58,396 bases of DNA from Thermosipho atlanticus DSM 15807 (GTDB lineage Bacteria; Thermotogota; Thermotogae; Thermotogales; Fervidobacteriaceae): assembly GCF_900129985.1 (NCBI RefSeq), contig NZ_FQXN01000007.1:1-58396 (forward strand), in the 5' to 3' direction. The position numbers and the translations under genes are program-made. Below the pieces are notes generated by a model. It was not told where the DNA came from, searched no databases, and was given only the letters and a program-made list of their open reading frames with translations. Shown here piece after piece: positions 37,022 through 50,988 of this stretch; within the stretch, counting starts at the first letter, position 1, and each line of letters starts with the position of its first letter.

Positions 37022-37705
37022 ATGAAAAAATTTGTAGGGGTTATTTTAGGTATTGCTATAATTTTCGTGTTGTTTAGTGGTTGTTTGCAACAAATTGTTC
37101 CAACTAACGGTGGAACAGGTGAAACTGATATTTTGGGGGCAAAGTTAGGTTATCTTTTGAACGATACACCATCTGCTACGGTTACGGGCATATTAGTGTA
37201 TAAGTATAATTATTATGGAATTCTTGCCGATGCTACTACAGGAATTTATATAAAAGATATATCTTCTGCAGGACTCAATGTTGGAGATAAAGTCACGGTT
37301 ACTGGAACACTATACAAAGACACTTACAATGGTAACTTAAGAATGAAGGACGTAATAGTTGTTGCTACTGAAACTGCTGCAATGGTAGAACCTGTAACCT
37401 TGAATGTTGCATTGAATAATTCTTGGTTGTTTGATAGTACTGGTACTACTTTAGATGCAACTTCTCTTGCTTTTTGGATATATAGATTTGTTACAGCTAA
37501 AGGCACGTTGACTTCTTTAGATACTACTGGTAATAAGTTCGAACTTGAATATCCAATAGATACTGGTACTGCAACTGTAACTGTTTACACTTACAGTGCT
37601 ATTTCTACTGTTACCAATGTACCAGCAACAGTAACAGGATATCTTGCAGGTTATAAATATGTATGGAATCTTTATCCAAGAACAGTGGATGACATAGAAT
37701 TTTAA
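37022..37705 (+). CDS. OB-fold lipoprotein
   Basis: 227 aa. A signal peptide ends in lipobox FSGC (Cys near residue 21). Two predicted OB-like beta units follow (about 45-120 and 130-227), each with a pattern of the form VTGILVYKYNY and VTGYLAGYKYVWNLYPRTVD. The closing motif resembles those in the genes at 10195, 37766 and 39413 (turn, aromatic residues, PR, DIE). These units resemble YhcR-type OB domains that bind nucleic acids in secreted nucleases, but no catalytic residues are seen. AGGAGGG precedes the ATG; a terminator separates it from the next gene. Confidence 0.72.
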   Translation: MKKFVGVILGIAIIFVLFSGCLQQIVPTNGGTGETDILGAKLGYLLNDTPSATVTGILVYKYNYYGILADATTGIYIKDISSAGLNVGDKVTVTGTLYKDTYNGNLRMKDVIVVATETAAMVEPVTLNVALNNSWLFDSTGTTLDATSLAFWIYRFVTAKGTLTSLDTTGNKFELEYPIDTGTATVTVYTYSAISTVTNVPATVTGYLAGYKYVWNLYPRTVDDIEF

Positions 37706-37765: not shown

Positions 37766-39355
37766 ATGAAAAAAGGGTTATTTGTTATGATTATACTTTT
37801 GGCTTCTCTTTTAGTATTTTCTGGTTCTTTTTCTTTATCGGTGTTAAATCTAACAACGATTGGTATTAATGACGGCTCGTTAGATTACTTTCCGATTATG
37901 TATGTTACTTACAAACCAGTAGATTTTTTGGCATTAAAAATTAGTGATTATTTACTTCTTTCTCACGATACATGGAATTTTGGAGGTATTTCGATTTTTC
38001 AACCAAGATATTATTATTTAGAAGGGAAGTTTAAATTATTTAATTTTGATGTTACTTTAGATGTTTTAAAAGCAAGATTGAAGAAAACCCAAACTGAAAA
38101 ATTAGATGGTTTAAGAGTTGGAGGACTTAAGTTTGATTATTACGGGGCAGGATTGTTTATAAGAAATGGAAAATTTAATTTAGGAGTTGCTTATGATATA
38201 AACAATAGCTATATTGCTGGTTATTTGCAAACAAATCTATTCGGTATCAAACTTGGAGGTTATTATGAAACAAAATATCAACAAGTGTCTTTAGATTTAA
38301 ACAAATCTTTTAATTTTGGAAAAATATCTGTTGATACATGGGCTGCACTGTCTGCGAAAAGTTCAGATATTGCAGCTTTTTCATATTTAATTGGCGGAAA
38401 ATTACAGTATAAAAACGTAATTTTTGCAGGACAGTATTTGCAATTAGGCTTAAATCCATATGATGCAGATTTCCAAACTGGAGATCCGAATGAAGTAGCT
38501 TTTTCAGCAAATGCATGGGCTTTGTACGCTGATTTAGATTACGTATTAAATAACTATACAATTGGAGCATTTTTAAGACATAATAGTGTATGGGCAAATA
38601 TGAATTATTTGCCATTATATGGGTTGAAATTATCTTATAAAGATTTTACATTAAAGTTTGGAAATGGAGATTTGGATAGTAACATTAGTGGTGAACAAAA
38701 GATAATTGTAGAGTTGAATTATTTCTATTCTTTAGATTTTGATAAATTATTTAATTTTGGCAAAAAAGCTAAACAAGTTGCCCCAATGGCTACTCCTAAA
38801 GCAGGAAAACATATGACTATGGGATACAATTCTATAATGGATGTTATTTTGGGCGAAGAAGGTCAAGTATATACTGTAAAGGGTATAGTAACTTCTCCAA
38901 AAGATTTGTTAGGTTCTGGAAGTTTTTATATTCAAGACGAAACATCGGGATTAATGATTTATGCACCATCATTAACAGAGGATTTAAATGTGGGGGATGT
39001 TGTAATAGTTACCGGTAAGAGTAAAGTTTGGTATGACATTATTGAAATTGTAGCCGATAAAGTTGAGGTAATGGGCAACGCAGAACCAAAACCTGATGTT
39101 CTTACAAGTTTATCAAAAACTTTCCTTTCAAGTTTTGTATGGGTAGAAGGAGTGGTAAAAGAGAAAAATACATATGACTTTTTAGTGGATACTGGAGATT
39201 TTGTTATAAAAATTTACTTGAAAAAAGGTACTAATATCGATATATCAAACATAAAGGTTGGTCAGAAGGTAAAAGTTCAGGGAATTTTAAGTATTTACAA
39301 TGGTGAGTATGAAATATTGCCAAGATGGCAGGAAGATATAGAAGTAATTGAATAA
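37766..39355 (+). CDS. Predicted outer-membrane beta-barrel with C-terminal OB-fold domain
   Basis: 529 aa. A signal peptide (residues 1-20) is followed by about 310 residues of alternating beta strands with aromatic girdles (LEGKFKLFNFDVTLDVLKA, LYADLDYVLNNYTIGAFLR). They end near VELNYFYSLDF, as in Thermotogales toga porins. After a flexible linker a 165-residue double OB-like domain follows ([38 protein letters not shown]). A domain after the barrel is unusual. The OB part resembles its neighbour at 37022. Function is unknown; surface or periplasmic nucleic-acid or ligand binding is possible. Confidence 0.68.
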   Translation: MKKGLFVMIILLASLLVFSGSFSLSVLNLTTIGINDGSLDYFPIMYVTYKPVDFLALKISDYLLLSHDTWNFGGISIFQPRYYYLEGKFKLFNFDVTLDVLKARLKKTQTEKLDGLRVGGLKFDYYGAGLFIRNGKFNLGVAYDINNSYIAGYLQTNLFGIKLGGYYETKYQQVSLDLNKSFNFGKISVDTWAALSAKSSDIAAFSYLIGGKLQYKNVIFAGQYLQLGLNPYDADFQTGDPNEVAFSANAWALYADLDYVLNNYTIGAFLRHNSVWANMNYLPLYGLKLSYKDFTLKFGNGDLDSNISGEQKIIVELNYFYSLDFDKLFNFGKKAKQVAPMATPKAGKHMTMGYNSIMDVILGEEGQVYTVKGIVTSPKDLLGSGSFYIQDETSGLMIYAPSLTEDLNVGDVVIVTGKSKVWYDIIEIVADKVEVMGNAEPKPDVLTSLSKTFLSSFVWVEGVVKEKNTYDFLVDTGDFVIKIYLKKGTNIDISNIKVGQKVKVQGILSIYNGEYEILPRWQEDIEVIE

Positions 39356-39412: not shown

Positions 39413-40228
39413 GTGAATATAAAAAATTATTTTGCTTTAACTTTATTTTCTTTGTTACTTTTGATTTCTTCTTGTGTTAATTTAACTTCTTTTGAAGTTG
39501 TTGATGTTATAAATGTAAATAACTTATCACAAACTTTAGAGCATGTAACTGTTGTTAGTGTGGTTGATGGGGATACATTTAAAATTTTAGAGAGTAGTAA
39601 TTCCGTTAGAATTATAGGAATCGATACACCGGAGATTCATGAGGGAAGTAAACCAATAGGTGAATTTGGCGAAGATGCCAAGAATTACTTAGAAAATTTT
39701 GTTTCAAAATACGATATATATATTTTAAAAATGGGATATGATAACTATGGAAGAATTTTGGCTTATGTGTTTGGAAAAGTTGATGAACAAAATTATGCTT
39801 TCTATGAATCTTCTATTTTAAAAGCAGGTTTGGCAAGACCGTTGATTTATTTTGATAACGATGATCCATATTTAACTCCTAAAATTGTTGGAGGCTATAA
39901 CTATGCATTTGAAAAAAAGGTGGGAATCTTTTCCAAATGGTCAACAGCTCCAATATTAAGAAGTGCAAACAATTATCTTTCTTACATTGGAAAAATAGTC
40001 TTTCTTGAAGGGACTGTACAAGATGTATGGAGTGATAGTAGTTTTTGGCATATATCTTCAAGTTGGTTTACAATAAGTATTAGAAAGGAAGAATATTACT
40101 ATTTTTTCAATGGATATGATTTAAATAATTTAAAAGGTAAAACTGTAAGATTTTATGGTGAATTATGGGAATATAATGGAGAACCCGAAATTTTATTGAG
40201 AAGTCCTAATGAAATTGTTATACTTTGA
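39413..40228 (+). CDS. Thermonuclease-like lipoprotein with C-terminal OB domain
   Basis: 271 aa from a GTG start with GGGAGGG upstream. A lipobox lies at ISSC (Cys about residue 21). Residues about 45-180 match staphylococcal-type nuclease (SNase): VVSVVDGDTFKILE, VRIIGIDTPEIHEG and DNYGRILAYVF, the last carrying the family Arg and Tyr. The later catalytic segment is less clear. Residues about 190-271 form an OB-like beta domain (VFLEGTVQDVWSD, FYGELWEYNGEPEILLR). It is probably anchored at the envelope and cuts DNA or RNA; if residues have diverged it may only bind. Confidence 0.82.
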   Translation: MNIKNYFALTLFSLLLLISSCVNLTSFEVVDVINVNNLSQTLEHVTVVSVVDGDTFKILESSNSVRIIGIDTPEIHEGSKPIGEFGEDAKNYLENFVSKYDIYILKMGYDNYGRILAYVFGKVDEQNYAFYESSILKAGLARPLIYFDNDDPYLTPKIVGGYNYAFEKKVGIFSKWSTAPILRSANNYLSYIGKIVFLEGTVQDVWSDSSFWHISSSWFTISIRKEEYYYFFNGYDLNNLKGKTVRFYGELWEYNGEPEILLRSPNEIVIL

Positions 40229-40611: not shown

Positions 40612-41295
40612 ATGAAAAGAGCTTTATTGTTAGTAACATCATTAATACTTATGCTTGGATTGTTTTTTGGTTGTTTAAATTTACCTGTAGAAACTGAGCA
40701 AGGTATAAAAGTTGACGGCATTTTAGACGAATGGGTAAATCTGAATGAAGATGCTATAGGTGACGGTTATTGGGGAGCAGGTAACGATATAATAAAAGTA
40801 GGGGTTTCATTTGATGCAAGTTTTGTTTATTTTGCTGGGGATTTTAAAAAGGAAGGATTTAATAATTTAATATTCTTAGTAGACTTTTCATCATTAACTG
40901 GTGCAACAAGTACAGTCGGGCATCCATGGACCAGAAATTACGTGTTTGATTCAGGCGATATTGATTTAGTTATTGAAACATGGGGAGACGGTTTTGCCAT
41001 GTGGAAAGTTACACAAGATGGAACTTTTACTGAAATTACCAGCGAAGCAACTCTTGCATATACAGGGAACACAGCTGATGGCGCAGAAAGATTTGTTGAA
41101 ATTGCTGTTCCTTTAAGTTCTCTTGGTATAACTTCAACTGATAATTTGCAAATTAATTATGTTACATCCATAACAGGTGGTTTTGATGGTACTTCGCAGT
41201 GGTTGGGTGATTTTGCGCCAGATCAAGATGCTACTTCAACGGATGGTTCATTTACTCCGGCTGCGACTATAACTCAGTTTTATCAAGTGCCATAA
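40612..41295 (+). CDS. Lipoprotein with CBM9/DOMON-like domain
   Basis: 227 aa. A signal peptide ends in lipobox LFFGC (Cys about residue 21). The mature part opens with GIKVDGILDEWVNLNEDAIG, the typical beginning of CBM9-like (DOMON-type) beta-sandwich domains, and has later strands such as FVEIAVPLSSLG. CBM9-like domains bind sugars or form parts of surface enzymes. No catalytic motif is seen. It is followed by a hairpin and two further envelope genes with sugar-binding-like domains. Confidence 0.75.
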   Translation: MKRALLLVTSLILMLGLFFGCLNLPVETEQGIKVDGILDEWVNLNEDAIGDGYWGAGNDIIKVGVSFDASFVYFAGDFKKEGFNNLIFLVDFSSLTGATSTVGHPWTRNYVFDSGDIDLVIETWGDGFAMWKVTQDGTFTEITSEATLAYTGNTADGAERFVEIAVPLSSLGITSTDNLQINYVTSITGGFDGTSQWLGDFAPDQDATSTDGSFTPAATITQFYQVP

Positions 41296-41362: not shown

Positions 41363-42043
41363 GTGAAAAAATTTTTGTTCTTTACTTTACTTTTTTTCAT
41401 TTTACTTTCTTTCTTTGGGTGTATGAAACTATTCAACCTGTCTTTAGAACCGGGAATATATGTAGTAGGTGAATGGAATAATTGGATTCCAACAGAAAAT
41501 GACCGGATGTATTTAAACAACGGTATTTATGAAATAGAGCTTCCTGTAGCTTCAATTACTTTTTCCCCAGGAAGTAATGGAAATATAGGATGGTACAAAG
41601 TAGTATATGTAGGAACTAATGAAACGAAAATTCAATCTTCCATTCCTGTGTGGCAAGAAAATTTAGGCGTTGCTACTTCTATAACTATATATGCTTCTCC
41701 TGATTTAATGCGTGATGGATTTGCTTTTGGTGCAGGAGATAGTGAAAAAGAAACAGGGGATTGGTATTGTGCAGGTGAATTTAATAACTGGCAACTGGCA
41801 CCGATGAATAAAATTGATGGAAAATTTGTGTATACTTTGGAAATAAGTGTAAATCAGGGAGATAGTTTTTATTACAAAATTGCAAGAAATTTGGATTGGA
41901 AACCATATGAAGAGCAATTTGACGGAAAAAATTACAATGCTGGTTATGGTCAGGATGCTTATTTTGTAGCTGATAAATCTGGAACTTCAATTGTGATTGA
42001 GTATGATCCAAAATTGAGCATTCTTAAGGCTTATGTTAAGTGA
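41363..42043 (+). CDS. Lipoprotein with glycogen-binding-like (CBM48/E-set) units
   Basis: 226 aa, GTG start. The signal peptide ends in lipobox SFFGC (Cys about residue 20). Two beta-sandwich units follow. The second contains WYCAGEFNNWQLAPMNKIDG, the AMPK/isoamylase-type glucan-binding motif (FNNW...M). The first has the related YVVGEWNNWIPTEND. Trp residues in the NNW motifs would be the carbohydrate contact. It is probably lipid-anchored and binds alpha-glucan; the exact ligand is not shown. Only 9 bases separate it from the next gene, indicating an operon. Confidence 0.75.
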   Translation: MKKFLFFTLLFFILLSFFGCMKLFNLSLEPGIYVVGEWNNWIPTENDRMYLNNGIYEIELPVASITFSPGSNGNIGWYKVVYVGTNETKIQSSIPVWQENLGVATSITIYASPDLMRDGFAFGAGDSEKETGDWYCAGEFNNWQLAPMNKIDGKFVYTLEISVNQGDSFYYKIARNLDWKPYEEQFDGKNYNAGYGQDAYFVADKSGTSIVIEYDPKLSILKAYVK

Positions 42044-42052
42044 GGTGATAAT

Positions 42053-43231
42053 GTGAAAGTGAAAAGTACGTTACTTTTTTTGTTAATTATTGTTTCTATT
42101 TCTTTTGCATATATATCTCCTTCATTTTCACTTAAATTAACTTATACAGCTGACTTTACGAACAATTTTCCAGAACTAGTTCCAAGTTATTATATTTCAA
42201 CAAACTTTTGGATTAACACAAGTATTCTTGGAAGTAATTTTTCTGGAACCTTTTCGATAGGAGGAAGTAGTTTAGACTCTGCTGAATTAAATTTTTCAAA
42301 AAATAAATTTGGATTCAATGTTTACAAAAATAGGGTATTTGGAAATACAGATGATAATTTGGGTTTGTATAAATTTGATATAGGTTCAGATGGAATAATG
42401 GTCAAATATTCAAATTTTTATTTATTTTTATACAACAGTTTGAATTTAAATTATTTAAAATATGAAGGATATAACAAAAAAATCGTATTTGGATCGAGAG
42501 ACAATAGGACTGATTTTCTCTTTCAAATATCTTTTCCAACTTTTGTGAATATTTCTCTGGAAACTATTTATACAAATTATGAAAACTTGAGTTTTGAAAA
42601 GGGAGTTTATCAAATAGGTATAACTGATAGAAACTGGAATTGGGGACTTAAATATACTTATGTGGGTTCTGAAGTTTCGTTGCCAGAATATACTAATATA
42701 AATATTTTTAATAAGCATTTGATTAATCTTTGGTACAATTTTCAGAATGTAAGTGTCTGGACTAATATTAAAAGTGATGAGAATGGTTTAAACTTTCAAG
42801 ATTTGAGTGAAATAGGGTTTAACATGAATTTTTCAAATTTTTCCGCTTCTTTTTCGAAAATTGGCTTTAATGATTTTGGTTTAACTCCAGAACAATGGGG
42901 AAAGTTTAATTTTACTATAAATAGTTCATTTAAACTTTTTGGATTTAATGGAAAGGTTTCCTATTCTTTTGGAAATCCAGCGCATAATACTATAGGAACT
43001 TTGGGAGAAGTGTACTATTTAGAATTGTCGAAAACCTTTGGGAATCTTTCGATTTTCAGTAAATTTCAAAGGATAGTTGGAGTGTATGAAATAAGAAATA
43101 CCTTGTATGCGGAATTGAAACTTACAGGATTTTCAAATGGAGAAGTAAAATTATCGATAGGAAATGGAGATTTTTATAATGTCAATACTTTCAAGGAAAT
43201 TGTTTCTTTAGAGTTTAACACTTGGTGGTAA
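42053..43231 (+). CDS. Predicted secreted beta-barrel protein
   Basis: 392 aa from a GTG start preceded by GAGGTGAT. A signal peptide (about residues 1-19) is followed by alternating amphipathic strands rich in Asn, Phe, Tyr and Ser (SLKLTYTADF, GFNMNFSNFSASFSKIGF), ending VSLEFNTWW with terminal aromatics. This pattern fits a Thermotogales outer-membrane barrel. No enzyme motif is present. It lies between the glycogen-binding-like lipoprotein and the triple-CBM48 barrel and is probably part of the same surface assembly. Confidence 0.65.
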   Translation: MKVKSTLLFLLIIVSISFAYISPSFSLKLTYTADFTNNFPELVPSYYISTNFWINTSILGSNFSGTFSIGGSSLDSAELNFSKNKFGFNVYKNRVFGNTDDNLGLYKFDIGSDGIMVKYSNFYLFLYNSLNLNYLKYEGYNKKIVFGSRDNRTDFLFQISFPTFVNISLETIYTNYENLSFEKGVYQIGITDRNWNWGLKYTYVGSEVSLPEYTNINIFNKHLINLWYNFQNVSVWTNIKSDENGLNFQDLSEIGFNMNFSNFSASFSKIGFNDFGLTPEQWGKFNFTINSSFKLFGFNGKVSYSFGNPAHNTIGTLGEVYYLELSKTFGNLSIFSKFQRIVGVYEIRNTLYAELKLTGFSNGEVKLSIGNGDFYNVNTFKEIVSLEFNTWW

Positions 43232-43245
43232 TTGGAGGTGTGAGA

Positions 43246-45141
43246 ATGGTAAAGAAAATTTTTATTTTAGTTATATTGTCAATAGTTATACTTTCATTTT
43301 CAAATGTTTATGTTGAAAATGATAAAGTATTTTTTTCGTTTGAATATGATGCAGAACAAGTATATTTAGCTGGTAATTTTAACAATTGGTCTCCTACATC
43401 TTTACCAATGAAAAATGTGAATGGGATATGGATGATTTCACTAGAACTTCAACCAGGTGAATATCAATATAAATTTGTGGTAAATGGAGAACAATGGATA
43501 GAGGATCCAGATGCTCCTTCTTTTGTTGATGATGGATTTGGAGGGAAAAATGGAGCGTTTCTTCTTGCTAATGAGAATGGTAAGTTAGTAATAAAACCAG
43601 TTGGGGAAAGTGTAGAAGAAAAAATGGAATATGAATATAACGAAAACAGAGAAGACACAATATTTGTTGATGGAGAAGGATATGTGGTTATAAGATATTA
43701 CAATCCTGAAGCAGACTATGTAATGATAGCTGGTGATTTTAATGATTGGGATCCAGAAAGTTTAGAAATGTACGAAATTGATGATGGATGGTGGGAAGCA
43801 GTACTTGAACTTGATCCTGGGGTTTATCAATACAAATTTGTAGTGAATGGGGAACAATGGGTAGAAGATCCAAATGCTTTTGCATATGCTCCGGATGGTT
43901 TTGGAGGAAAGAATTCTGTTCTCGAGGTCTATGTAGAAAACGGAAGACTATCAGTAAAAGCTCCAGGATTATCTGGTTTAACAAATGAAGTTGTTGAAAA
44001 GGAAGTTGAGGAAGTTCCTTTGGGAGTTAGTGTTATTAATGGAAAAGTTTATTTCAAAGTGGAAAAAAAGGAAGCTTCAAAAGCTTATCTTGCAGGGAGT
44101 TTTAACAACTGGGATCCTCAATCAATAGAGATGAAAATGGTAGATGGTTATTGGCAAGTTTCATTAGAGTTAAGTCCTGGAAGTTATCAATACAAATATG
44201 TGTTTATTATTAATGGTAATCAAAACTGGAAGGAAGATCCATATTCACCTGCATATGTTCCAGATGGCTTTGGAGGGAAAAATTCGGCTTTTAATCTTGT
44301 GAAAAAAGATGGTGAATTAACCATTGAAGCCCCTGAAGAGGTATCTTCACAATCGCAAGTTGGTATCAGCGGAAATTATTCTTTCAATTTAACTTATAAA
44401 TATGATCCTACCAACATTTTACAAGGTGTTAGCTTTACAAATTCGTTAACTTTAGTTTTTACTCCTTCAGATGAGATCAATTTTGCTTTAAATTTTTCTG
44501 GGGCCAATATAGAATATGCACAACTAAATTTTGGATGGAAAAATTTTACAATTATGGCTCATTACAATACCCCAATTGATTATCCAATAGAAGGAGCAAG
44601 AAACGGAATTTATATTGCATATAAAGATATGTTATTTGGAGATATTGGGATTAATAACAATCAAGTATCTTTCCTCGTTGGTATTAATTTTAACAACTTT
44701 TCAGTTTCATACGGAAGTAACTATTTTAACAACGAAAATACCATATTAGCGGGGTATAATTTCGATTATTTAGGAATTGATTCCAATGTTTTAGGTGGAG
44801 TTTCAATTGAAACTTTTAATCCCATGGTATTTTTACAAATAAATGGTAGCAACTGGAGCGTAGATTTACTTTATAAAGAAAATTCGCTTTCGACTAATTT
44901 TGTAATGTTTAAATGGGAAATGCTTGGGAAGTATTCTTTCTTGGATGGTACTTACAATTTCTCCTTGTATGTTCCAGTTTTCGAAAAATTCCAATTGTTT
45001 GGTGGTTATGAACATAAAATATCTACTGATGAATTTTCCGGAGGGTTAGGACTATACGATGATGATTATAATGTGAATTTAGGAATTAGATTTGAAATGT
45101 CAAATATCTACATTGATATTTTTGGAAATGTGAGTTTTTGA
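43246..45141 (+). CDS. Triple CBM48-like domain protein with C-terminal beta-barrel
   Basis: 631 aa from ATG at 43246 behind GGAGGTGTGAG. A signal peptide (1-19) is followed by three tandem E-set/CBM48 (AMPK-type) domains, at about residues 20-115, 135-240 and 260-365. Each has an FNNW or FNDW motif followed by a conserved EYQYKFVVNGEQW or YQYKYVF block, an EDP turn and a DGFGGKN ending. Residues about 385-631 form amphipathic beta strands ending NVSF, a terminal Phe as in outer-membrane barrels. I read it as a toga-anchored glucan-binding protein. A secreted-enzyme alternative is unlikely because no catalytic domain is present. Confidence 0.78.
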   Translation: MVKKIFILVILSIVILSFSNVYVENDKVFFSFEYDAEQVYLAGNFNNWSPTSLPMKNVNGIWMISLELQPGEYQYKFVVNGEQWIEDPDAPSFVDDGFGGKNGAFLLANENGKLVIKPVGESVEEKMEYEYNENREDTIFVDGEGYVVIRYYNPEADYVMIAGDFNDWDPESLEMYEIDDGWWEAVLELDPGVYQYKFVVNGEQWVEDPNAFAYAPDGFGGKNSVLEVYVENGRLSVKAPGLSGLTNEVVEKEVEEVPLGVSVINGKVYFKVEKKEASKAYLAGSFNNWDPQSIEMKMVDGYWQVSLELSPGSYQYKYVFIINGNQNWKEDPYSPAYVPDGFGGKNSAFNLVKKDGELTIEAPEEVSSQSQVGISGNYSFNLTYKYDPTNILQGVSFTNSLTLVFTPSDEINFALNFSGANIEYAQLNFGWKNFTIMAHYNTPIDYPIEGARNGIYIAYKDMLFGDIGINNNQVSFLVGINFNNFSVSYGSNYFNNENTILAGYNFDYLGIDSNVLGGVSIETFNPMVFLQINGSNWSVDLLYKENSLSTNFVMFKWEMLGKYSFLDGTYNFSLYVPVFEKFQLFGGYEHKISTDEFSGGLGLYDDDYNVNLGIRFEMSNIYIDIFGNVSF

Positions 45142-45167: not shown

Positions 45168-45201
45168 AAAAACCCCGGTATTTGTATAACCGGGGTTTTT
45201 T
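45168..45201 (+). terminator. Terminator after the triple-CBM48 gene
   Basis: AAAAACCCCGGT and ACCGGGGTTTTT form the arms around a 9-base loop, followed by TTG. Confidence 0.9.
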
Positions 45202-45368: not shown

Positions 45369-45755
45369 TTGAAAAAGACTGGAATTTTTAATTCTGAAAT
45401 TTCAAGAATAATAGCTAGATTAGGACATAAAGATAAGATTGCAATTGTTGATATGGGATTTCCTATTCCTAATTGTGTGGAAAGAATAGATATAGTTCTT
45501 GATTATGGCAAACCAACATTTGAAGAAGTTTTAAAGGTAATATTAAAAGAGTTAAAAGTTGAAGGAATAGTTATTGCAAAAGAATCTTCGAAAGCTTTTG
45601 AACAGATTTTTAGGAAAAATATTCCCGAAGTTGAAATTAAGAAAGTTACACATGAAGAACTTAAAGCTGCTATTAAAGAAGTGGTAGCTGTCATAAGAAC
45701 GGGTGATGTTACGCCATACAGTAATGCAATACTAATTTCTGGGGTGATTTTTTAA
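45369..45755 (+). CDS. rbsD: D-ribose pyranase
   Basis: 128 aa from TTG at 45369 with GAGGTGAAA upstream. HKDKIAIVDMGFPIPN has the conserved active-site region, and VIRTGDVTPYSNAILISG is the family C-terminal motif. RbsD interconverts pyran and furan forms of D-ribose. It is the first gene of rbsDACBRK. The stop is followed directly by rbsA. Confidence 0.95.
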   Translation: MKKTGIFNSEISRIIARLGHKDKIAIVDMGFPIPNCVERIDIVLDYGKPTFEEVLKVILKELKVEGIVIAKESSKAFEQIFRKNIPEVEIKKVTHEELKAAIKEVVAVIRTGDVTPYSNAILISGVIF

Positions 45756-47231
45756 ATGGGAAAGATATTAGAAATGAAGAAAATTACAAAGACTTTTCCA
45801 GGAGTTGTTGCGTTAAAAAATGTAGATTTTGATCTTTACGAGGGAGAAGTTCATGCGTTATTGGGAGAAAATGGTGCTGGAAAAAGCACTTTAATCAAAA
45901 TAATCAGCGGTGTTCATAAACCAGATTCTGGAGAAATGATTATTAATGGTAAAAAAACACTTTTTTCAAATCCAACAGAAGCTATAAAGGAAGGAATAGC
46001 TACCATTCACCAGGAATTAAATTTATTTGAGGAATTGACAGTATTTGAAAATATATTTGTTGGCAACATTGAAAAATTTACTTTTTCAAAATTTAAAATG
46101 TTGAAGTTTGCTGAGCGGTTGTTAAATGAATTGGGATTTCCAATAAGGGCAGAGGAGAAAATAAAAAATTTAAATACATCGGAAAAACAATTAGTTTCAA
46201 TAGCAAAAGCTTTGTCATTAAATGCAAAGATAATTATAATGGATGAACCAACAGCGGCAATTACTGAGCATGAAACTATAAGACTTTTTGAAATAATAAA
46301 AGATTTAAAAAAGAAGGGAATTTCGATCATTTTTATTTCGCATAGGCTTGAGGAGGTTTTTGAAATTGCCGATAGAGTGACAGTCTTGAGAGACGGGGTA
46401 CTTATTGGAACAGGGAAAATAGAAGAGTTTTCGAAAGAAAAGTTAATTAAAATGATGGTTGGAAGAAAAATCGAAGAAATGTATCCAAAGTTTAACGTTA
46501 TTACAAATAAAGAAATATTTAGAATAGAAAATCTAATGGTTGGTAACTATGTTCGCGATGTTTCTTTCAATGTAAACAGAGGAGAGATTTTTGGTATTGC
46601 TGGTTTAGTGGGTTCAGGAAAGTTGGAGATTGCTTTGGGTATATATGGTTACTTGCGTTCAAAATGGGAAAAATTAGTGTTGGATGGGAAAAATTATTTA
46701 CCAAGTAAAAACATGTTAAAGTATGGAATTGCTTTAGTTCCTGAGGACAGGAAACAAATGGGGCTAGTGTTAGATTTAGATGTGATGAAGAATATAATTT
46801 TACCAAATGTTGATGAGGTAACAAAGTTTGGGAAAATTTCGTGGAAAAAATCAAAAATGATAGTTCAGGAAGAAGTTGAAAAATATGCAGTAAAGGTTTC
46901 ATCAATTAAACAAAAAGTAAAAACTTTGTCGGGAGGAAATCAGCAAAAAGTTGTTTTATCAAAGGTTTTAAGAAAAAGACCGAAAATAATTTTTTTAGTG
47001 GAACCAACTAGGGGGATCGATGTGGGAGCAAAAGTTGAGGTTTATAATATCGTAAATAGGTTAGCTAATGAAGGTGTTGGGGTAGTATTTATTTCTTCAG
47101 AACTTCCCGAAATTGTCAGTCTTTGTGATAGAGTATTGGTAATGCATAGAGGACGATCCATGGGTATTCTTGAAAAAGATGAAATAAATCAGGAAAATAT
47201 ATTAAAATTAGCGACAGGAGTTGATATTTAA
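45756..47231 (+). CDS. rbsA: Ribose ABC transporter ATP-binding protein
   Basis: 491 aa with two ATPase domains. Domain 1 has Walker A LLGENGAGKSTLIK and Walker B IIIMDEPTAAI. Domain 2 has GIAGLVGSGKLEIALG, a partly degenerate loop, LSGGNQQKVVLSKVL, and IIFLVEPTRGID. The duplicated arrangement is typical of RbsA/MglA. It energises ribose uptake with RbsC and RbsB. rbsC begins at the last base of the stop. Confidence 0.96.
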   Translation: MGKILEMKKITKTFPGVVALKNVDFDLYEGEVHALLGENGAGKSTLIKIISGVHKPDSGEMIINGKKTLFSNPTEAIKEGIATIHQELNLFEELTVFENIFVGNIEKFTFSKFKMLKFAERLLNELGFPIRAEEKIKNLNTSEKQLVSIAKALSLNAKIIIMDEPTAAITEHETIRLFEIIKDLKKKGISIIFISHRLEEVFEIADRVTVLRDGVLIGTGKIEEFSKEKLIKMMVGRKIEEMYPKFNVITNKEIFRIENLMVGNYVRDVSFNVNRGEIFGIAGLVGSGKLEIALGIYGYLRSKWEKLVLDGKNYLPSKNMLKYGIALVPEDRKQMGLVLDLDVMKNIILPNVDEVTKFGKISWKKSKMIVQEEVEKYAVKVSSIKQKVKTLSGGNQQKVVLSKVLRKRPKIIFLVEPTRGIDVGAKVEVYNIVNRLANEGVGVVFISSELPEIVSLCDRVLVMHRGRSMGILEKDEINQENILKLATGVDI

Positions 47232-48157
47232 TGAGTTGGAGAAATGTTTTAAAAAAACTCAAAGAGTATCCAGCGATAGTAGGTTTTTTTGGAATAGTGA
47301 TTTTCTTTTCTTTGTTAAGTGACAGGTTTTTGTCTCTATCAAATTTTATTAATGTGTTTAGACAAGTTTCTATCCAAGCAATTATTGCTTTTGGTATGAC
47401 TTTAGTAATTATTTCTGGTGGTATTGATTTATCGGTTGGTTCAGTTTTGGCTTTTTCAGCAGTTGTAATGGCTTCGATTGTGAAAGGCGGCTCGGTATTT
47501 TTGGGTATATTAGCTGCATTACTTGTTGGGGCAATTTTAGGAGCTGTTAACGGGCTAATTATTACCAAGGGAAAAATTCAACCGTTTATTGTTACACTGG
47601 CCACTATGGCGATTGCAAGATCTTTAACTTTAGTTTATTCTCAGGGGATGCCGATAACAGGTTTTCCACGTTCTTTTAGAACAATAGGTCGAGGAGATGT
47701 CTTAGGAATTCCGATTCCGATTATTATAATGTTTATTGTATTCGGGATTATTTATTATATATCCATGTATACAAAACTGGGGCTTTATACATATGCAATA
47801 GGTGGTAATGAAATTGCCGCAAAACTTAGTGGAGTAAAAGTAGATAAATATAAAATAATTATTTATACAATAAGCGGACTTCTTTCAGCTGCAAGTGCTA
47901 TTATTCTTACTTCACGTTTAAACAGTGCTCAACCTACATTTGGTACGGGATATGAATTAGATGCTATTGCAGCGGTTGTTTTGGGAGGGGCTAGTTTAGC
48001 AGGTGGTAAAGGTTCTGTTGTTGGTACTTTATTTGGAGCTTTGATTATGGGCATCTTGAATAATGGGTTAAATTTACTTAATGTTTCTCCATTCTACCAA
48101 CAAGGTGTAAAAGGTATAGTCATATTAATTGCGGTGTTGCTTGAAAGAGAAAACTAG
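47231..48157 (+). CDS. rbsC: Ribose ABC transporter permease
   Basis: 308 aa, about eight to ten helices. IIAFGMTLVIISGGIDLSVGSV and VLGGASLAGGKGSVVGTLFGAL are conserved permease motifs of the RbsC family. It forms the membrane channel with RbsA and receives ribose from RbsB. It overlaps the rbsA stop by one base and precedes rbsB by 11 bases. Confidence 0.95.
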   Translation: MSWRNVLKKLKEYPAIVGFFGIVIFFSLLSDRFLSLSNFINVFRQVSIQAIIAFGMTLVIISGGIDLSVGSVLAFSAVVMASIVKGGSVFLGILAALLVGAILGAVNGLIITKGKIQPFIVTLATMAIARSLTLVYSQGMPITGFPRSFRTIGRGDVLGIPIPIIIMFIVFGIIYYISMYTKLGLYTYAIGGNEIAAKLSGVKVDKYKIIIYTISGLLSAASAIILTSRLNSAQPTFGTGYELDAIAAVVLGGASLAGGKGSVVGTLFGALIMGILNNGLNLLNVSPFYQQGVKGIVILIAVLLEREN

Positions 48158-48168
48158 GAGGTGGAAGT

Positions 48169-49038
48169 ATGAAAAAAGTGTTTTTCGTGATGCTTATTTT
48201 AGTGATGTTTGTGGTAAGTGCATTTAGCTACAAAATAGGGCTATCTTTGTCTACACTTAACAACCCATTTTTTGTGACTCTTAGGGATGGGGCAATTGAT
48301 AAAGCAAAGGAATTGGGAATAGATTTAATTGTAGTTGATGCTCAAGATAAACCATCTAAACAACTCAATGATATTGAAGATTTGATTCAGCAAAGAGTTG
48401 ATTTAATCATTATCAATCCAACAGATAGTGACGCAATCGTTGTTGCTGTTGAAGAAGCAAATGATGCAGGGATTCCAGTTATAACGGTAGACAGGGGTTC
48501 AAATGGTGGAAAAGTGGTAGCACATATTGCTTCGGATAATGTATTGGGTGGAGCAATGGCAGCAAAATTTATCGCTGAAATGTTAAATGGAAAAGGTAAA
48601 GTTGTGGAACTAGTTGGTATTCCAGGAACGTCAGCTGCAAGGGATAGAGGCTTGGGATTTGAAACTGAATTAAAAAAATATCCTGGACTTGTTCTTGTAG
48701 CAAAACAAACAGCTAATTTCAACAGAGCTGAAGGATTAACGGTAATGGAGAATTTACTTGAAGCATATCCTGATATTGATGCTGTTTTTGCACAAAATGA
48801 TGAAATGGCGTTAGGAGCAATTGAAGCAATAAAAGCTGCAGGAAAACTTGATAAAATAATTGTTGTGGGGTTTGATGCTATCCCCGATGCAATTGAAGCA
48901 GTTAAAAAGGGAGAGATGGCAGCTACAATCGCTCAACAACCATATTTAATGGGTCAGCTAGCTGTCCAAAAGGCATACGAATATCTAGAAACCCATACAA
49001 TTTACATACCAGTTGAGTTAAAATTAGTAACAGAATGA
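48169..49038 (+). CDS. rbsB: Ribose-binding protein
   Basis: 289 aa. The N-terminal signal peptide is MKKVFFVMLILVMFVVSAFS; there is no lipobox Cys. The mature part has KIGLSLSTLNNPFFVTLRDGA, GGAMAAKFIAEMLNGKGKVV and FAQNDEMALGAIEAIKAAG, typical of RbsB-class periplasmic binding proteins. Thermotoga RbsB binds ribose. AGGAGGTGG precedes the ATG. A strong hairpin follows the stop, so its mRNA part may be more abundant than that of rbsR and rbsK. Confidence 0.95.
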   Translation: MKKVFFVMLILVMFVVSAFSYKIGLSLSTLNNPFFVTLRDGAIDKAKELGIDLIVVDAQDKPSKQLNDIEDLIQQRVDLIIINPTDSDAIVVAVEEANDAGIPVITVDRGSNGGKVVAHIASDNVLGGAMAAKFIAEMLNGKGKVVELVGIPGTSAARDRGLGFETELKKYPGLVLVAKQTANFNRAEGLTVMENLLEAYPDIDAVFAQNDEMALGAIEAIKAAGKLDKIIVVGFDAIPDAIEAVKKGEMAATIAQQPYLMGQLAVQKAYEYLETHTIYIPVELKLVTE

Positions 49039-49044
49039 TGAAAT

Positions 49045-49075
49045 AAACACTTAGGGGGTTTCCCCCTAAGTGTTT
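49045..49075 (+). other. Strong intercistronic hairpin between rbsB and rbsR
   Basis: A 14-bp perfect stem, AAACACTTAGGGGG with a TTT loop and CCCCCTAAGTGTTT, is followed by GCTTT but no real T tract. It fits an mRNA-stabilising or partial-termination element reducing expression of the downstream regulator and kinase. Confidence 0.75.
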
Positions 49076-49090
49076 GCTTTGGAGGGAAAT

Positions 49091-50086
49091 ATGGGAAAAC
49101 ATAGTATTAAGGAAGTAGCAAAAAAAGCAGGTGTATCAATTTCAACAGTTTCAAGGGTATTAAATAATTCTGCACCAGTTTCAGAAAAATTAAGACGGAA
49201 AGTAGAAAAAGCTATAGAAGAGCTTGGATATTATCCCAGCCATTTAGCTAAAAGTTTAAGAAAAGGTGAAACTGGAACAATAGGATTTATTCTACCAGAT
49301 ATTACTAACCCATTTTTTGCAAATATTGTTAGAGGAGCAGAAGACTATTTAAGAAATGAAGGATATAACTTAATTTTATGCAATTCAGACCAAAACCAGA
49401 TGCAAGAAATAGAACTTCTCAAGGTTTTGATTTCTAAAAACATTGATGGATTACTTTTTACGGGTACTGGATCTTCCAATCCGTTGTTATTGGAAAAGAT
49501 TCAACATGGATTAAAGGTAGTTTTTCTGGATAGGATTATACAGGGAATTAACTCTTCTTATGTTATTATTGATAACAAAAAAGGAATGAATTTGCTTTTA
49601 GATTATTTGATAGGAAAAGGTCATAAAAATTTTGTTTTCATTAATGGAAACAAAGAAACTTTTAGTGCAAGGATAAGATATGAGACTTTTGTTAAAAGAA
49701 TTAGAACCGAAAATTTGAAGTTCAAACATTATTTTACCGAATTTTCATATGAAGCGGGTTATTCAAAAGCTAAAAAATTAAAAGAATTACCTGATGTAAT
49801 TTTATGTGGGAATGACTTGATTGCTTATGGAGTAATTGATGCATTGGAAGAAAAAGGATATAAGGTTCCTGAAGATGTGAGTGTTACGGGATTTGATGAC
49901 ATTCCTTTTTCAAAACATTTTAAGCCTCCATTAACTACTGTTTATCAACCAATGTATGAAATGGGAAAAAAAGCCGCAGAATTATTATTAAAAATTATAA
50001 AGGGTGAGAAGTTAATAAACAAAGGAGTAATTTTATCACCCCAACTTATTATCAGAGAATCTACTAAGGAGATGGTAAATAAATGA
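49091..50086 (+). CDS. rbsR: LacI-family repressor of the ribose operon
   Basis: 331 aa from ATG at 49091 with TTTGGAGGG upstream. The N-terminal helix-turn-helix (SIKEVAKKAGVSISTVSRVLN) and hinge (YYPSHLAKSLRKG) are typical of LacI/GalR proteins. The ligand domain begins TIGFILPDITNPFFA. Being encoded with rbsDACB and rbsK, it most likely binds the GAAAACGTTTTC operators at 45329-45352 and responds to ribose. The stop overlaps rbsK by 4 bases. Confidence 0.9.
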   Translation: MGKHSIKEVAKKAGVSISTVSRVLNNSAPVSEKLRRKVEKAIEELGYYPSHLAKSLRKGETGTIGFILPDITNPFFANIVRGAEDYLRNEGYNLILCNSDQNQMQEIELLKVLISKNIDGLLFTGTGSSNPLLLEKIQHGLKVVFLDRIIQGINSSYVIIDNKKGMNLLLDYLIGKGHKNFVFINGNKETFSARIRYETFVKRIRTENLKFKHYFTEFSYEAGYSKAKKLKELPDVILCGNDLIAYGVIDALEEKGYKVPEDVSVTGFDDIPFSKHFKPPLTTVYQPMYEMGKKAAELLLKIIKGEKLINKGVILSPQLIIRESTKEMVNK

Positions 50087-50988
50087 TATCGGTTGTAGGT
50101 AGTTCTAATATGGATATAGTATTATCAGTAGAACAATTTACAAAACCTGGTGAAACTCAAAAGGCAAAAAAATTAGAGTTCTTTCCTGGAGGAAAGGGTT
50201 CAAATCAGGCTGTTACAGTAGCAAAATTATCAAATCAAAAATTATATTTTTTGACTTGTATAGGTAATGATTCATATGGAAAGTTTTTAAAAAGACGATA
50301 TGATGAACTAAATATATCAGGTTATAATGTTGTTGACGAAAGTAACGGTTTAGCTTTTATTGAAGTTACTCAATGGGGAGAAAATAGGATAATTATTTTT
50401 CAAGGAGCAAACAATTATTTAACTAAAAAACTAGTTGAAGAAAGAATAGATATTCTTATCAAATCTAATATGGTTCTTCTTCAAAATGAAATACCATTTA
50501 GTACAACTATATATGTAGCGGAAATATTTAAAAAAAGCGGTAAAATAGTAATTTTTGATCCTGCACCTGTTGAAGGTATATCTAAAGAAATATTTGAATA
50601 TGTTGATTATTTAACTCCAAACGAAGAAGAAATTAGATTATTAACAATTAAATTTTTTGGTAAATTTATTTCTTTAGAAGATAGTTATCATAAATTTAGA
50701 AAATTAGGATTGAAAAAACTTTTAGTTAAATTAGGAGATAAAGGGATTAAATATTTTGATGAAACACAAATAATTGAGCAACCATCGTTTAAAGTCAAAG
50801 CAGTTGATACAACAGCAGCTGGAGATGTGTTCAATGGAGCATTCGCTGTTGCTTTAACTGAAGGAAAAAACATAAAAGAAGCTATTAAATTTGCTACAGC
50901 TGCTGCAGCAATATCTGTAACAAGAAAAGGAGCGCAAAGTTCTATACCAACAAAGCAAGAAGTGGAAAAGTTCTTAAAATATTATTAA
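50083..50988 (+). CDS. rbsK: Ribokinase
   Basis: 301 aa, PfkB family. SVVGSSNMDIVLSVEQFTKPGE, FPGGKGSNQAVTVAKLS and the catalytic/anion-hole motif VDTTAAGDVFNGAFAVAL are present. It phosphorylates ribose to ribose-5-phosphate for the pentose phosphate pathway. It is the last gene of the ribose operon. Confidence 0.93.
   Translation: MISVVGSSNMDIVLSVEQFTKPGETQKAKKLEFFPGGKGSNQAVTVAKLSNQKLYFLTCIGNDSYGKFLKRRYDELNISGYNVVDESNGLAFIEVTQWGENRIIIFQGANNYLTKKLVEERIDILIKSNMVLLQNEIPFSTTIYVAEIFKKSGKIVIFDPAPVEGISKEIFEYVDYLTPNEEEIRLLTIKFFGKFISLEDSYHKFRKLGLKKLLVKLGDKGIKYFDETQIIEQPSFKVKAVDTTAAGDVFNGAFAVALTEGKNIKEAIKFATAAAAISVTRKGAQSSIPTKQEVEKFLKYY

Follow-up and report, generated by a model that had tools for sequence, protein, structure and literature searches.

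P0001 of Thermosipho atlanticus DSM 15807 is, by sequence and predicted structure, a real and conserved porin that bears three tandem CBM48 domains in front of its outer-membrane β-barrel; it adds to the sugar porins a variant form whose partner system has no known description. It probably serves the Thermotogota as an outer-membrane channel for the uptake of α-glucan, that is, of starch or glycogen fragments. The gene lies in a window of 58,396 nucleotides (contig NZ_FQXN01000007.1, positions 1-58,396, forward strand), by which the whole analysed stretch of DNA is meant, and its parts and neighbours are collected in Table 1.

Table 1. Features of the P0001 locus; positions are those of the window
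Feature	Position	Strand	Length or residues	Remarks
P0004, lipoprotein	40612..41295	+	227 aa	no Pfam family
Terminator-like hairpin between P0004 and P0003	41320..41337	+		
P0003, lipoprotein	41363..42043	+	226 aa	lipobox Cys20; two CBM48-like E-set repeats (GEWNNW, GEFNNW)
P0002, barrel-like partner without CBM	42053..43231	+	392 aa	ends NTWW
P0001, CBM48x3-barrel protein	43246..45141	+	631 aa	signal peptide, three CBM48, outer-membrane barrel; ATG at 43246 with GGAGGTG just 5' of it, stop at 45141
CBM48 domain 1 of P0001	43306..43596	+	residues 21-117	W48, K76, W84, N102
CBM48 domain 2 of P0001	43660..43959	+	residues 139-238	W168, K197, W205, N223
CBM48 domain 3 of P0001	44023..44328	+	residues 260-361	W289, K317, W328, N346
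Porin-like β-barrel of P0001	44362..45138	+	residues 373-631	~20 strands, terminal Phe631
Intrinsic terminator closing the operon	45168..45200	+		-18.1 kcal/mol, z -3.8, U-run after

The CBM48 domains and the barrel of P0001

P0001 is matched in Pfam by AMPK1_CBM (E 8.8e-35, 119 bits, gathering cut-off 26.8) and by CBM_48 (E 7.2e-34, 116 bits, gathering cut-off 22.4), each family recognizing three stretches. The preliminary description had read three tandem CBM48/AMPK-type domains at these nucleotides, with FNNW or FNDW and DGFGGKN motifs, and had suggested an HMM search for CBM48. Its reading holds: both families score above their cut-offs, domains 1-3 carry FNNW, FNDW and FNNW in this order, and DGFGGKN is found three times. 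In the predicted model the domains are E-set β-sandwiches resembling the glycogen-binding domain of AMPK β1 (Z 12.7, rmsd 1.5 Å over 79 residues; each of the three domains is about 35% identical to it, at rmsd 1.5-2 Å), and branching enzymes are also matched in the comparison with solved structures. All three domains have the Trp, Lys, Trp and Asn of AMPK-type glucan binding, the Asn being that of GGKN, and this quartet is kept in 63/63 CBM48 copies from 26 sequences, including the conserved Trp that had been anticipated for the sugar face. In AMPK β1, W100, K126 and W133 touch β-cyclodextrin, and mutants bind glycogen markedly less (PMC2642990). Judged from these residues, the ligand of the P0001 domains is predicted to be α-1,4-glucan, and likely not wall polymers. 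Each domain thus shares family and ligand residues with the glycogen-binding domains of AMPK β, but those of P0001 sit on a membrane barrel, whereas AMPK and other CBM48 domains are found on a kinase subunit or an enzyme.

Averaged over 18 orthologues, identity amounts to 62.5% for CBM1, 69.7% for CBM2, 62.3% for CBM3 and 28.3% for the barrel, which indicates strong constraint on the binding domains. When the domains are placed singly in a tree, CBM3 falls with the lone CBM of the barrels of another family, f10, and CBM1 and CBM2 pair with their namesakes in GH57 amylopullulanases. Furthermore, the stretch of signal peptide, CBM1 and CBM2 is 56% identical, signal peptide included, to that of the GH57 amylopullulanase of the same genome. 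The tree and this identity point to CBM3 plus barrel as the core of the protein and to signal peptide-CBM1-CBM2 as a cassette common to it and the enzyme.

No Pfam family matches P0001 after residue 372, the remaining 259 residues belong to no Pfam or NCBIfam family, and no porin family, LamB included, was obtained for P0001 by sequence at E<=1 in Pfam and NCBIfam. The AlphaFold2 model, computed from an alignment with 26 relatives, has a mean pLDDT of 86.9 and a pTM of 0.43, the low whole-model value arising from four flexibly linked domains whose orientations are undefined. Residues 373-631 form about 20 short meandering strands with pLDDT of about 90 or more over most of this part, in agreement with the barrel that had been placed after residue 385. 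This part aligns with solved porins: it spans LamB (residues 0-421) from start to end (Z 14.1, rmsd 3.6 Å, 225 residues), followed by OpdQ (Z 13.6), ScrY (13.4) and Wzi (12.9), and Occ porins, AlgE and OmpM1 are also among the matches. Because porins of several families lie within 1-2 Z, no single nearest porin family can be named. The end-to-end porin match suggests that the modelled barrel is closed.

Hydrophobic alternation in the barrel strands exceeds that of all 2000 within-strand shuffles, while that in the CBM strands, taken as a control, does not exceed the shuffles (152/2000). The marks of outer-membrane porins, namely a signal peptide, amphipathic strands and a C-terminal aromatic residue, are all present in P0001; the terminal Phe remarked on earlier behind a barrel-like region is Phe631, which is invariant in 26 relatives. 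P0001 does not have the features of type Va autotransporters, a 12-strand Autotransporter domain with a pore helix: it has no such Pfam hit, its strands number about 20, and no helix precedes strand 1.

OmpM-type attachment porins likewise have a carbohydrate-binding domain in the periplasm at their N-terminus and a porin barrel behind it, and SLH porins hold the envelope together. By analogy, the barrel of P0001 could be an anchor and not a channel, fixing arms for glucan bound to amylopullulanase, for storage glucan or for a periplasmic polymer; the presence of OmpM1 among the structural matches and the poor conservation of the barrel sequence (28%) agree with such a role. However, about 20 strands exceed the need of an anchor, a second barrel-like gene adjoins in every genome with complete context, and the ligand residues fit α-1,4-glucan. 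The SLH domain of OmpM binds wall polymer, whereas P0001 has no SLH domain in Pfam and bears instead CBM48 with α-glucan residues. An anchoring role is, in our judgement, improbable.

The operon and the face of the membrane

The gene of P0001 comes third and last in an operon, P0003-P0002-P0001, with gaps of 9 bases between P0003 and P0002 and 14 bases between P0002 and P0001. The preliminary description gave the architecture of P0001 correctly, but it overlooked two further products of this operon, the barrel-like P0002 and the CBM48-like lipoprotein P0003. P0002 shows β-alternation (z 3.0), and its profile is related to that of the P0001 barrel with a probability of 93%. The lipobox C20 of P0003 is invariant in 11 relatives. 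Profile searches of the PDB with the P0002 and P0003 families gave nothing firm, the PHROGs search gave no match, and neither a TonB-dependent plug domain nor a SusD partner is found by Pfam in P0001-P0004. P0003 is weakly similar to a type IX secretion plug family (NF052315, E 4e-5, far below the cut-off), probably by way of the E-set fold. A region homologous to P0004 lies directly 5' of the operon in relatives, and P0004 is probably associated with the operon on a separate transcript.

In this genome no enzyme gene adjoins the operon; GH57, PulA (72% identity) and MalE (63% identity) are encoded on other contigs. Directly downstream (45369-50988) lies a complete ribose-type operon with RbsD-, RbsA-, RbsC-, RbsB-, LacI- and RbsK-like genes, whose order is the same in two further loci, L036 and L037. 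On the other side, the gene of a barrel-like outer-membrane protein whose C-terminal part has OB-folds (37766-39355, PF01336 E 5e-9) stands between those of an OB-like lipoprotein (37022-37705) and of a nuclease that is a lipoprotein with an SNase domain (39413-40228). The order of this trio is kept in L037 and L119, and it looks like a nucleic-acid parallel of the CBM48-barrel set.

The preliminary description had suggested that P0001 could be a surface porin capturing α-glucan. In such a porin the arms would bind starch granules or glycogen outside the cell and feed the pore, as SusD, SusE and SusF serve SusC. Three tandem CBMs suit avidity for a polymer, the clusters also contain genes of CBM48 lipoproteins, and the neighbouring AmyA lipoprotein in Thermotoga is a toga protein (PMC3387000). 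The barrel model, however, has about 20 strands, an even number, which puts both its termini on one side, and a terminal Phe is, by an established rule for BAM substrates, a mark of the periplasmic side. In addition, residues 373-631 align from start to end with LamB, so that the N-terminus of the barrel coincides with the N-termini of porins, whose termini are periplasmic, and the linker, counted from the final strand of the CBMs to barrel strand 1, has 16-20 residues without a pore helix. Loops in the P0001 model measure about 39 residues after odd strands versus about 23 after even ones, and those in the model of a Cloacimonadota protein described below about 190 versus about 45 (hand counts on DSSP of both models); the latter lengths place the N-terminus in the periplasm there too. 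By these rules of topology, the CBMs of P0001 most likely lie on the periplasmic face, and capture at the cell surface is unlikely. Of the earlier proposal, the intact sugar face, the porin-like barrel and α-glucan as the likely ligand stand, and the surface position is not supported. The toga of the Thermotogota is a loose outer membrane, and by analogy with AmyA and from membership of this phylum, P0001 would be located there.

Distribution and gene neighbourhoods

The P0002 family occurs in 33/103 genomes of the Thermotogota (a further match, in G014, is weak), and by comparison of coordinates a CBM48-barrel gene lies no more than about 100 bases away in each case. Three CBM48 domains and a barrel are found in Thermotoga and in family f1, which comprises Thermosipho, Fervidobacterium and neighbours (genus names taken from the matching genome-scan records), and the proteins of family f10, of about 410-430 amino acids, have one CBM48 and a barrel. 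In G084, a complete genome, the CBMs have disappeared along with P0002 and P0003, and a barrel remnant is left. This remnant (L123:5855-6607) lacks a signal peptide, the segment P0004-P0003-P0002-CBM having been lost en bloc, and the barrel-only frame was therefore rejected as a CBM-less form. A barrel-only relative in G001 (L008) was likewise rejected, as it merely reflects a contig end.

In Thermotoga (L114 and L115) the order is MalE2, GH13 lipoprotein, P0003-like, P0002-like, P0001 orthologue and pullulanase, and in L114 only, a P0004-like gene stands between the GH13 lipoprotein and the P0003-like gene. MalE2 matches PDB 6dts (E 1.5e-230), and the pullulanase matches the CBM41 of PDB 2j71 (E 4.5e-63), which we take to be that of T. 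maritima PulA. In the published listing of TM1839-TM1845, TM1840 and TM1845 are separated by exactly four ORFs (PMC2246101), so the four Thermotoga ORFs between amyA and pulA occupy the places of TM1841-TM1844. By gene order in T. maritima, we infer that P0001 corresponds to TM1844 and P0004 to TM1841, and that TM1842-TM1844 are the counterpart of the P0003-P0002-P0001 set. TM0153, a porin candidate of 70.7 kDa (PMC3387000), was rejected as the orthologue, since the P0001 orthologue of Thermotoga has its place between amyA and pulA. For the amylase AmyA (TM1840), presence in the toga has been demonstrated (PMC3387000). A predicted secreted WD40 β-propeller gene is located directly 3' of pulA in Thermotoga (L114:3679-5427, L115:2524-4266). 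In other genera a GH13 lipoprotein or GH57 gene adjoins the set (L118, L120, L121/L045 and L122).

A similar arrangement was met by the genome scan in other phyla, all loci being from MAGs: Cloacimonadota, Neomarinimicrobiota, Eisenbacteria, Krumholzibacteriota, Latescibacterota, Elusimicrobia and a Fibrobacter-labelled MAG. There a barrel-like protein of about 500 amino acids is followed by a CBM48-bearing protein of about 530-650 amino acids and a CBM48 lipoprotein of about 135 amino acids, usually then by a CBM48n-GH13 amylase, and MalG/MalK-like ABC genes are present in several loci. The recurrent cluster in L046, L060, L073, L076 and others also holds a PorV-like protein. The modelled Cloacimonadota protein consists of CBM48 and a barrel (pLDDT 87.3, pTM 0.79) with porin and TonB-receptor-like matches. 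No sequence homology was found between this barrel type and that of the Thermotogota (hhalign probability 2.9%), so the parallel is an architectural one.

The structural resemblance to Wzi and AlgE also allows P0001 to be imagined as a glucan exporter or an exopolysaccharide lectin, whose barrel displays or secretes α-glucan. The neighbours are, however, catabolic (amylase, pullulanase, MalE) and without polymer synthesis genes, and such a role is highly improbable. The clusters with AmyA, PulA, MalE2, GH57 and GH13 amylases support instead the α-glucan ligand that had been expected at the outset, and uptake of α-glucan is preferred because of the context of CBM48, that is, amyA/pulA in Thermotoga and maltose-type ABC and GH13 genes elsewhere.

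A route for α-glucan and its relation to known systems

In the uptake channel proposed here, maltodextrin chains would enter through the barrel of P0001, alone or with its partner P0002, and back-diffusion would be prevented by the CBM48 arms, which would catch them on the periplasmic side of the membrane. The chains might then be handed to the secreted pullulanase or amylopullulanase and further to MalE, the maltodextrin-binding protein, with its ABC transporter, and P0003 would act as a putative accessory glucan-binding subunit on the same membrane.

As the preliminary description supposed, no named system of this form is described in the open-licence literature on CBM48 with a porin, the outer membrane or Thermotoga, and the nearest known systems differ as follows. 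ScrY and LamB are likewise large outer-membrane barrels encoded with sugar uptake and match structurally (Z 13-14), and ScrY also bears an N-terminal periplasmic extension. P0001, however, belongs to no Pfam porin family, packs about 20 short strands into about 260 residues, and carries as its extension three modules predicted by family to be true glucan-binding ones. The Sus system of Bacteroidota (SusC/D/E/F/G) likewise encodes an outer-membrane channel, a starch-binding lipoprotein and an amylase together, but P0001 has neither a TonB-dependent plug nor a SusD family match, and its binding modules are fused to the barrel. OmpB (TM0476) of Thermotoga, the only protein assigned as a porin in the toga study of the Thermotogota, is likewise an outer-membrane porin ending in Phe (PMC3387000), but it is a general major porin without CBM, encoded at a different locus.

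With slightly less than an even chance, paired barrels, one of them with CBM48 arms, and a CBM48 lipoprotein constitute a third route of starch uptake across the outer membrane beside LamB and SusCD. This route would have at least two origins, on barrels that are not related, in the Thermotogota and in the Cloacimonadota, Neomarinimicrobiota, Eisenbacteria, Krumholzibacteriota, Latescibacterota and others. TM1842-TM1844, as assigned by gene order in the mal2/amyA-pulA region, become a named candidate for the passage of polysaccharide across the toga. In addition, the CBM-on-barrel architecture is met repeatedly in uncultured phyla, and it may help to recognize starch scavengers in metagenomes.
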